Assembly: GCA_947477885.1 (NCBI GenBank)
Contig: CANJUD010000013.1
Coordinates: 1-64,000 of the forward strand
DNA: 64,000 nucleotides
Reading direction: 5' to 3'
DNA from: Bacteroidota bacterium
GTDB lineage: Bacteria > Bacteroidota > Bacteroidia > UKL13-3
Shown: piece after piece, positions 28,853-31,817 of the stretch
How positions within the stretch are numbered: position 1 is the stretch's first letter
How the letters are laid out: every line of letters begins with the position of its first letter
Program-made: the position numbers and the translations under genes
The notes under the pieces: generated by a model
What the model was told of the DNA's origin: nothing
Databases searched by the model: none
The model's input: only the letters and a program-made list of their open reading frames with translations

Positions 28853-29275
28853 ATGAAAAAAATAATCTCCTTAAAATTATCAGTGTTAACATTAGTGGTA
28901 TTATTCTCCACTTCGGTTTCCACATCTGCTTATTACATAATAAGCAAAGACCAAAAGCGTGCCGGCTATCTCAAGCTTACTGAAACGCATGACAATATTA
29001 ACAGCGTGCATAAGTTGATATGCGAGACACCAGGACAAACTAAATGCGATTGGGTTATACTCCCTCCTGCTGGTGAATCACAGGGTAATGGCATAATTAT
29101 TCCGTATCCAGATATTGAAGTACTGGTAATTAGTCGCATAGACTCTGGTGTGCTATCAGGCTCTTTTAGTTGTTCTAGCGAGCAATTTGTAGTATATACT
29201 TCAAATCTAACCGGCGGTTTCGAAATAATCGTTTATAGCACACTGGAGGCTACTCAATTAGGTCTAATTCATTAA
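28853..29275 (+). CDS. Small exported two-cysteine protein A (novel family candidate)
   Basis: The 140-residue protein begins with a signal peptide (MKKIISLKLSVLTLVVLFST) with probable cleavage near STSA. The mature part has the pattern LICETPGQTKCDWVI, with two cysteines 8 residues apart, then VISRIDSGVLSGSF and an ending EIIVYSTLEATQLGLIH. The neighbouring gene product shares this pattern and was probably produced by duplication. It has an extra cysteine in SFSCSS. No known family was recognised. The upstream spacer has AATAAATAAT-type repeats and no perfect TAnnTTTG box. It is the first gene of a four-gene string that ends with a thioredoxin-like protein. Confidence 0.75.
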   Translation: MKKIISLKLSVLTLVVLFSTSVSTSAYYIISKDQKRAGYLKLTETHDNINSVHKLICETPGQTKCDWVILPPAGESQGNGIIIPYPDIEVLVISRIDSGVLSGSFSCSSEQFVVYTSNLTGGFEIIVYSTLEATQLGLIH

Positions 29276-29288
29276 TTTTAAAAATACT

Positions 29289-29696
29289 ATGAAAAATTTT
29301 AAAAAAGTGATTTTGCTTTCAATGTTGGTAAGCATTTTAAGCCCTTCTTTTGGCTACATTATAATTAACCGCTTCAATGGTGGAAAAAATGGTTTTGCAA
29401 CAGTCACAGAAAAACAAACCACTGATCCAGTATCAGGATTAGTCCTATATAGACTTGAATGTTTAGACGAAGGTTCTAATATCTGTCGTTTTGTTATATA
29501 CACACCGTCGATTGCCTTTACTTCCCAACGTATTTCTGAACTTGAACAAATAGTCGCGAACAATATTCAATCAGGTCTGTTATCAGGCACTATTATTTTG
29601 CCTGATGCGGTAGTAACATTTGTTACAAATGGTCTCAGCACTGAAATCAAGATTTATACATTGGCAGAAGCTCAAACAGCGGGTCTTATTCCTTAA
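29289..29696 (+). CDS. Small exported two-cysteine protein B (paralogue of A)
   Basis: The 135-residue product has a signal peptide (MKNFKKVILLSMLVSILSPS, then FG). It shares with protein A the start of the mature chain (YIII/YYII), the cysteine pair in LECLDEGSNICRFVI, the block IQSGLLSGT, and the C-terminus EIKIYTLAEAQTAGLIP. Overall identity outside these blocks is low. The gap after gene A is 13 bases, and the stop overlaps the ATG of the next gene by one base (TAATG), so translation is probably coupled. The conserved C-terminal EAxxxGLI tail could be a recognition signal for a partner; this is inference. Confidence 0.75.
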   Translation: MKNFKKVILLSMLVSILSPSFGYIIINRFNGGKNGFATVTEKQTTDPVSGLVLYRLECLDEGSNICRFVIYTPSIAFTSQRISELEQIVANNIQSGLLSGTIILPDAVVTFVTNGLSTEIKIYTLAEAQTAGLIP

Positions 29697-30919
29697 TGGC
29701 AAACCACTTCAGCTTAATAAGGTTTGCCTTAGTTGGTTTATTTTTAGCCTTTTTTGGGCTTCGTGCTTTTTGTCAAAGTGGTACATATAATTCAGAAACA
29801 AGATTTAACCTAAACATTAAATATTCTCAAGGGTCTGCTGCAAATTCCGTATCTTGTTTTAATTCAAAGTACTTTCTTTTCTATTATGACAGCGTAATGG
29901 AAGAAGATCAATCATTTAAGAATCTAAATCTAAAAAAAGTATATCCAAATTCGGGTTCAGTCACTGATGTTCAACTAGTTTATCCTGACAGTATAAGCCT
30001 ACAAAGTAAAAGTTTTGGCCGCATAAATGCACTTTTTATTTCACGAAATGGCAAATACTTAATTGTTTCTCATTTTCGAGTTCAGGTTTTATTTATTAGC
30101 AGAAATAACAAATATGTATTCAAGAAAGTATTGTCTGTTGGTCATTATGTAGAAAGCATGGAAGAGTTAAACAATTCTACTGCAGTACTTTACACTTGCT
30201 ACAACTACCATCCTCTCGACCAAATGCATACCACAAGTATAAGCACACTGGATTTGCGAAGCGGGGTAATAACAAACACTATTCATCCCCAAATAAGTGG
30301 AATTGAATTTAGTCATTTAATTCACCATTGGATAACTATTACAAAAGACAATATAGCTTTTTGCGATCCTCTAAAATTTCAAGTCAATTTTTATAATTCT
30401 AAATTATCTAACTTTAAGTCATATAATATAGAGCCGCCGAAATGGCAGAATAGTAATCTTGATACTTTATTAAGTACATTCAGTATCTTAAGTGCTAAAA
30501 GCTCTATTTCCAAAATTCTAAGTAAAGATGATAGTATTTGTAGGGTTGAGAAGATTTACTGGGTGAACAAACATAAATTACTTATCTCATATAAGCTATT
30601 TGCTGAAAAGCAAACTACACGACATATTTTAATATACGACTTCAATAGGAATAAAGCAATAAAGGACAGCAAAATTAATATTAGAGATTTCTTTTATATG
30701 AGGGACTCCTTGCTGAACGGACAAAGGCCATTTCCTGAAATTACATATTCTTCAAGTTTATATTTTAAGAAAAATGCGGTATTTATGTTTAGCCAATATT
30801 ATCTCCCTGTAAAATTAGAATATATTTCTGGAAAGCCAGGGATGGAAGCACGCAAAAAATATCTAAAAACAAATGGAATGCAATGGACTTTGATAAAATT
30901 AAGACTTTCTTTTTTATAA
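29696..30919 (+). CDS. Secreted beta-propeller-like protein in the two-cysteine peptide locus
   Basis: The 407-residue protein starts at the ATG that shares a base with the upstream stop. It has a signal peptide (LIRFALVGLFLAFFGLRAFC) with Gln after the Cys; whether this is a lipobox is doubtful. The body is rich in short beta strands and recurrent phrases such as ALFISRNGKYLIVSHF and VLFISRNNKYVFKKV, which suggests a propeller-type fold similar in style to the 6-bladed proteins found beside small peptides in other Bacteroidota. No catalytic motif is seen. The last 37 bases overlap the following thioredoxin-like gene. The fold assignment is tentative. Confidence 0.65.
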   Translation: MANHFSLIRFALVGLFLAFFGLRAFCQSGTYNSETRFNLNIKYSQGSAANSVSCFNSKYFLFYYDSVMEEDQSFKNLNLKKVYPNSGSVTDVQLVYPDSISLQSKSFGRINALFISRNGKYLIVSHFRVQVLFISRNNKYVFKKVLSVGHYVESMEELNNSTAVLYTCYNYHPLDQMHTTSISTLDLRSGVITNTIHPQISGIEFSHLIHHWITITKDNIAFCDPLKFQVNFYNSKLSNFKSYNIEPPKWQNSNLDTLLSTFSILSAKSSISKILSKDDSICRVEKIYWVNKHKLLISYKLFAEKQTTRHILIYDFNRNKAIKDSKINIRDFFYMRDSLLNGQRPFPEITYSSSLYFKKNAVFMFSQYYLPVKLEYISGKPGMEARKKYLKTNGMQWTLIKLRLSFL

Positions 30920-31374
30920 TACCAATTTGCCTAATATCAGCTAATATTACAAGTGGGCAAGGATACCTATATAACGATGATTTGGAGTTGTTTGAGTTGA
31001 GCGAATTTGGAAACAATTCTGCTGTTATGATAGTAAACAATACCAACTGTTTGCAGTGTGTTGTGCAATTGCGTGATGCTTTAATGGACTTAAAAAAAGG
31101 GATAAAACAACTTAAAGTATTTTTAATCATTCAAACTGATACAGGAGATACATTTATCCCATTTTGGGCTTTCAATAAAGGCTATGACAAAGTATTATTT
31201 TTATATCAAAAAAAATGGGATTTAACTTTATTAGGAAATATCAATAGAGAACTATCTATTAATATGCAAGACCACACACCTGTCTTACTTTACAGAAAAT
31301 CCACTAACTGTCAGCTTTGGGACTATGAAATGCTTTACAACCTCGGTTTTAAACCTTCTTTTCGCTTAGATTAA
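30883..31374 (+). CDS. Exported thioredoxin-like protein with NCLQC motif
   Basis: The 163-residue protein overlaps the end of the preceding gene by 37 bases. It begins MDFDKIKTFFFIIPICLISA, a signal peptide with likely cleavage near ITSG. After a beta strand (SAVMIVNNTNCLQCVVQLRD) it has a CxxC motif in the position of a thioredoxin active site, followed by a long helix and a strand LKVFLIIQT. The Gln and Leu between the cysteines are unusual for a reductase. Later segments (HTPVLLYR) fit the cis-proline strand of the fold. It may reduce or form the disulfide of the two small proteins in this locus; this is inference from context. The 3' end overlaps the convergent Rieske-like gene by 4 bases. 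Confidence 0.65.
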   Translation: MDFDKIKTFFFIIPICLISANITSGQGYLYNDDLELFELSEFGNNSAVMIVNNTNCLQCVVQLRDALMDLKKGIKQLKVFLIIQTDTGDTFIPFWAFNKGYDKVLFLYQKKWDLTLLGNINRELSINMQDHTPVLLYRKSTNCQLWDYEMLYNLGFKPSFRLD

Positions 31375-31817
31375 TTGCTATATATATGCAACAGATTACC
31401 CGTAAGTGCCGCATTATATTCCCTTAACTGTCTTGTTGCCGGACTCTTCAAAGGAAGCCCATCGGTGCCAAACTGCGAACCACAAAAAGGGGTCCATATG
31501 CCGCCAACATATTTACCGCATTTCATAAAAAATCCAGAAGAATCTACAACCAGTTTTGAAGAACTGTCTAATGGGTGATAACTACAATTCAAATCAAAAG
31601 CTTTATACTCTCCTGCTATATTTTTAAAAACTGCAATTCCTCTAACTCCTACATTGTCTAATACTACCCAACCCCCAGGATTTTGTAATTTGATATACTG
31701 CCCTATCGTTATATTAATATAAGTGTCAACTACCACATAAGGAATCGCATCGTCTTTTGTGCTTTTACTACATGCAAATACCAGTACAAAAAAAGATATA
31801 TATAATAGTTTTTGCAT
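31371..31817 (-). CDS. Degenerate Rieske-like lipoprotein
   Basis: The 148-residue protein has a lipoprotein signal (LLYISFFVLVFACS) with the acylated Cys at residue 16. The rest follows the Rieske [2Fe-2S] layout seen in Bacteroidota lipoproteins: FDLNCSYHPLD, then FMKCGKYVGGIWTPFCGSQF, then DGLPLKSPATRQLREY. Canonical proteins bind the cluster through CxH and CxxH. Here the first motif is CSYH and the second keeps Cys but has Gly-Ser where CHGS is expected, so a normal cluster may not form. The gene is followed at 1 base upstream by the WG-repeat gene on the same strand, giving a two-gene operon. Confidence 0.7.
   Translation of the reverse strand: MQKLLYISFFVLVFACSKSTKDDAIPYVVVDTYINITIGQYIKLQNPGGWVVLDNVGVRGIAVFKNIAGEYKAFDLNCSYHPLDSSSKLVVDSSGFFMKCGKYVGGIWTPFCGSQFGTDGLPLKSPATRQLREYNAALTGNLLHIYSN

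Follow-up and report, generated by a model that had tools for sequence, protein, structure and literature searches.

The window, that is, the whole 64,000-nucleotide stretch of Bacteroidota DNA analysed here, contains four consecutive genes whose products are two small exported proteins with two cysteines each (A and B), a large exported protein that is predicted to form a propeller (P) and an exported thioredoxin-like protein (T). The question that this locus raises is whether the four genes form a unit that is maintained in other genomes and, if so, whether T makes or breaks a disulfide in the small proteins, as an earlier note had proposed. The cassette is real and is kept together across many Bacteroidota; the chemistry is a proposal that is weighed below against three other explanations.

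Layout of the cassette and its three protein families

The four open reading frames listed in the earlier note are exact in their coordinates, which also reproduce its overlaps of 1 base (B and P) and 37 bases (P and T). A and B belong to one family, designated S, so that the families of the cassette are S, P and T; all leaders and lipoboxes mentioned here are calls made by eye.

28853..29275, + strand: gene A, 140 aa, exported small protein of family S with a Sec-type leader judged by eye (S profile E=3.9e-36)
29021..29047, + strand: A residues 57-65, CETPGQTKC, a C-x3-G-x3-C loop whose C, G and C are invariant in 24 aligned homologues
29289..29696, + strand: gene B, 135 aa, paralogue of A (S profile E=1.4e-36)
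29460..29486, + strand: B residues 58-66, CLDEGSNIC, the C-x3-G-x3-C loop of B, from the alignment of homologues
29696..30919, + strand: gene P, 407 aa, exported, predicted beta-propeller, from homologues and Foldseek propeller matches
30883..31374, + strand: gene T, 163 aa, exported thioredoxin-like protein, overlapping P by 37 bases
31048..31059, + strand: T residues 56-59, CLQC, the CxxC motif, both cysteines invariant in 12 homologues
31279..31281, + strand: T residue P133, in the place of the thioredoxin cis-proline (presumably cis), invariant in 12 homologues

A gap of 13 bases lies between A and B, and the overlap of B with P is one base, within TAATG; in the favoured model, the four genes are read as a single, tightly packed operon. 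None of the four proteins has a match in Pfam or NCBIfam at E<=1, searches of PDB sequences with the single proteins and the profiles returned only chance matches, and relatives were not found in viral contigs searched with P and A. On the opposite strand, the gene for a lipoprotein of 148 aa, whose match to the Rieske domain is weak (31371-31817, -; E=0.21), converges with T and overlaps it by 4 bases.

The paralogy of A and B is borne out by two comparisons: a search of A against its own genome returned A itself and B only (B at E=2.7e-4, 31% identity), and the mature parts, with the leaders removed, align with a score of 87, compared with a mean of 27.4 +/- 4.8 and a maximum of 51 in 2000 shuffles (z=12.5). 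The SG[VL]LSG and EAxxxGLI blocks described previously are present in both, and so is the cysteine motif, in the form L-x-C-x7-C-x-[WF]-V-I, although the spacing is exactly 7 in both proteins and not 7 to 8. S proteins have in common the pattern K.(N)GG..GY..VtE.H, and the C-x3-G-x3-C loop, invariant in 24/24 aligned members, is nearly universal in the family. The structure of A was modelled with low confidence (mean pLDDT 50.6); in the model C57 closes one strand and C65 opens the next, a placement that would suit a loop disulfide and proves nothing. This model of the S fold had no match in the PDB.

The model of P (mean pLDDT 54.4, pTM 0.60) is made of repeated strands, and Foldseek searches with this low-confidence model returned matches to propellers, with 542 hits in all at E<=0.001, so that P may be, with low confidence, a beta-propeller. 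The description of P as repeat-rich holds only for the predicted blades, the repeats not being visible in the sequence. Among the structural matches listed, the highest TM-scores with the P model were those of two Bacteroides propellers, DUF4221 (PF13970; PDB 3s9j; 0.48/0.53) and BF0058 (PDB 4raa; 0.46/0.51); unlike them, P lacks a Pfam match, whether to DUF4221, TolB_like or DUF5128, and is known from a low-confidence model. DUF4221 itself gave two weak matches in the order, which were uninformative.

As regards T, the NCLQC motif reported earlier is present, and C56, C59 and P133 are invariant in 12 homologues. Run against other genomes, the T profile picks up AhpC-TSA/Redoxin proteins (E 1e-4 to 1e-7), and the eight such matches that were scanned are all AhpC-TSA, Redoxin or Thioredoxin_8 proteins. 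By this profile link, the invariant CxxC and the proline, T is classed from its sequence as a probable thioredoxin-superfamily protein, in agreement with the first assignment. It resembles Redoxin, AhpC-TSA and TlpA-type oxidoreductases in these residues and in being exported, but differs from them in lacking the WCxPC signature, in the variable residues between its two cysteines and in that the window T has no direct match above the cut-off to the thioredoxin families of Pfam.

Conservation of the cassette and divergence at a fixed site

Cassettes were collected by a P search and an S profile within the order and by a wider S profile in the class; 19 S cassettes came from the order and 18 from elsewhere in the class, and 36 are resolvable. 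One genome per species was counted and related genomes were included; the associations are therefore not fully independent, because related loci were counted together. The expectation that homologues of the small proteins adjoin a protein of about 400 residues was upheld at every resolvable locus: an exported protein of 365-465 aa lies directly beside S in 36/36, mostly in the company of T. This large neighbour scores with the P profile in 31/36; the neighbours in L100, L104, L107, L112 and L113 are P-like in size, leader and position only and are not established as P. The converse linkage, of P with S, mostly holds: among the P-profile matches in the class sample (n=15), two good ones stand without S (G037:C1, at 48 kb, and G324:C2), and a weak match (G362) belongs to a different propeller-like lipoprotein, which adjoins a TlpA-like gene. 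The T profile alone led to one additional complete S-P-T cassette (L246, loop CTGQGYNPC). A further candidate S locus, L111, was discarded as a false positive, its match being confined to the leader.

T is adjacent or fused to P in 25/35 resolvable cassettes. Within the order it is a separate gene in 12/18 and fused to P in 4/18 (L025 and L061, together with L063, which is frame-broken, and L028, which is cut by the contig end); outside the order it is present in 9/17, including two cases (L097 and L098) identified from their size, position and CxxC rather than from the profile. The order of the genes is nearly always S-P-T, the exception being L110 (P-T-S). When S has the C-x3-G-x3-C loop, T is found in 25/32 cassettes, and when S lacks it, in 0/3 (the first cassette of L105, L107 and L109), a co-occurrence that is suggestive only, as all three loop-less S proteins are from one genus. 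An adjacent T is missing from 10/35 cassettes, seven of which retain the loop.

Several observations concern individual loci. The S relatives of that one genus (L105:117-530, L107:5588-6019 and L109:3632-4066), none with an adjoining T, have other cysteine patterns in place of the loop, among them CxxCP (CDICP, CEVCP, CGVCP). An S-S-P-T cassette adjoins a Cas9-like gene, called from the start of its sequence only (L103:1-3459). S cassettes also adjoin further sets, sequence-unrelated to S, of a small lipoprotein, a propeller-like lipoprotein of about 360 aa and a thioredoxin-like or small lipoprotein (L021:5873-11496, L025:901-4395). Another locus (L218:1-3240) is a further cassette of the peptide-propeller-CxxC kind: its products are two 58-aa cysteine-rich exported peptides, which end in CPDQ and CPEQ, together with a lipoprotein of 400 aa and a pair of CxxC proteins.

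The existence of S-P pairs without T in some genomes is compatible with a complex for binding or uptake at the cell surface: S and P would bind an environmental ligand, and T, a periplasmic thiol protein of general function, would maintain both; lipobox-like leaders, seen by eye in the P of L067 and the T of L101, L105 and L108, point in the same direction. Neither the fusion of T to P nor its association with the loop in two peptide families (S and the NVEALA peptides discussed below) is expected of a general housekeeping protein, and this explanation is considered unlikely.

Another way of looking at the locus is to compare its site among related species. Two congeners carry the cassette at the same site, between M28 peptidase and 121-aa membrane genes and the Rieske-like, WG-repeat and DXS genes, and among the three congeneric species identity is 27-37% for A, B and P, compared with 76-96% for the flanking proteins, while T gave no BLAST match between congeners. 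One congener has two P genes and the other at least two, and the narrow P alignment, searched against genome contigs, matched only the contig of congener G033. The GC content is 31% in P and T, compared with 39% in the flanks. The cassette changes much more rapidly than the genes that flank it, which marks the locus as being under exchange or diversification; whole-cassette exchange and fast divergence are each compatible with the pattern.

Such divergence would be explained if S were a secreted antagonist, a bacteriocin-like effector with P as its immunity protein or carrier and T as a disulfide maturation factor. The hypervariability at a fixed site, the duplicated S and P genes, the patchy distribution and the small, exported, disulfide-type products are in keeping with this idea; against it, there is no match to toxin families, the cassettes lack a dedicated exporter or protease, and P is much bigger than the usual immunity proteins, so that it is given little credence.

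Parallels with NVEALA peptides

The earlier note had compared the gene order with that of NVEALA peptides, and the organisation does agree: in Bacteroidales, genes for NVEALA peptides (PF14055), TolB_like propellers (PF15869) and CxxC/DUF1573 oxidoreductases likewise stand in tandem (L127, L128, L191), and by analogy the present locus has the NVEALA-type combination of small exported cysteine protein, predicted propeller and CxxC protein. A and B are, nevertheless, ruled out as NVEALA proteins: they have no match to PF14055 at E<=1, their 24 homologues have none at E<=0.1, there is none anywhere in the window genome, and the N[VI]EALA motif is absent, as stated before, from A and B and also from their homologues. 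S proteins are about twice as long as NVEALA peptides, P has no detectable profile relationship with the TolB_like proteins of NVEALA cassettes and T lacks the DUF1573 domain of their oxidoreductases. Homology of P to the NVEALA-linked propellers was rejected at the sensitivity of hhalign, which was negative.

What the two systems do have in common is the loop, since the T-linked subset of NVEALA peptides carries the same C-x3-G-x3-C. In Bacteroidales, a GC[TI]SCKLQ-type oxidoreductase lies <=1.5 kb from 11/15 peptides of the CxGxGxxxC type but from 3/52 of the remaining NVEALA peptides (Fisher p=3e-7, an optimistic value because many of the loci are orthologous); at some of these loci the oxidoreductase directly follows the peptide, with no propeller between. 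A T HMM run on 517 ORFs ranked the NVEALA-linked oxidoreductases at the top, an S HMM placed many CxGxGxxxC peptides near the top, and the support of hhalign for the link was weak (probability 23-40%). The common loop and redox partner may reflect either descent or convergence. A second, longer NVEALA group has C-x3-G-x3-C in the form CxxGGSxxC (L162:3384-8982, L160:6220-6456, L194:5306-5551), with no CxxCKLQ oxidoreductase nearby.

CxGxGxxxC NVEALA genes are divergent from a gene for a two-TM protein of about 330-520 aa at L127:8437-9998, L128:6737-8250, L191:3867-7280, L184:4819-7081 and L166:2253-4546. This divergent arrangement with a two-TM protein is seen for 13/15 peptides of this type and 1/53 others, the single other (L171, CAQPGCIDC) being itself C-x3-G-x3-C, and a Trans_reg_C domain lies at the C-terminus of four of the six two-TM proteins scanned, with scores under Pfam's cut-off in three. 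It is possible that the NVEALA peptide and the two-TM protein, which in several cases ends in a DNA-binding domain of the OmpR type, constitute a periplasmic peptide sensor unit. These findings lend some weight to a signalling module, in which S would be a periplasmic or secreted peptide signal, a transcription regulator would read its abundance or the redox state of its loop, and P and T would tune it; XRE, LytTR or LuxR-type regulators adjoin several S cassettes as well. The window cassette, however, has no adjoining regulator, the two-TM regulator is found with NVEALA only and S-dependent expression is not on record, which leaves signalling improbable, if worth considering. Nothing on the cassette came up when the literature was searched for NVEALA, DUF4221, propeller/TlpA cassettes and membrane regulators.

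A proposed redox-linked module

The favoured reading, held tentatively and at somewhat less than an even chance, is that of an extracytoplasmic module in which an exported disulfide-loop ligand (S) is joined by a propeller as its partner (P) and by a thiol oxidoreductase dedicated to it (T). The two cysteines of exported A and B would close the nine-residue loop C-x3-G-x3-C, and T, presumed to have the thioredoxin fold and to share their compartment, would form, reduce or shuffle its disulfide, a role suggested by their association. P would bind or carry S as a near-obligate partner, and it is proposed to dock T as well because some genomes encode P and T as a single polypeptide. That the cassette diverges while its chromosomal site stays fixed points to S and P as a possible specificity pair, a ligand with its receptor, that is being diversified or replaced. 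The disulfide state of S, its binding to P and an output in recognition or signalling are thus presumed features of the model. Its strengths are the linkage, the invariance of the loop, the P-T fusion, the divergence and the parallel link between loop and oxidoreductase in NVEALA; the missing adjacent T, the loop kept in most of those cassettes, and the low confidence of the structure models of P and S count against it.

A broader possibility, which we regard as doubtful, is that of an undescribed general class in Bacteroidota, in which redox-linked exported peptides with C-x3-G-x3-C, each with its own thioredoxin-like protein and propeller, would serve as rapidly diverging signals or as factors in recognition; its members would be different peptide families, S here and the CxGxGxxxC NVEALA peptides in Bacteroidales. 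Three families without a Pfam or NCBIfam name are in any case tied into one unit across many Bacteroidia. The action of T on the C-x3-G-x3-C loop is a concrete and cheap chemical hypothesis, and, as the common loop ties the cassette to NVEALA, an experiment on one system would bear on the other.
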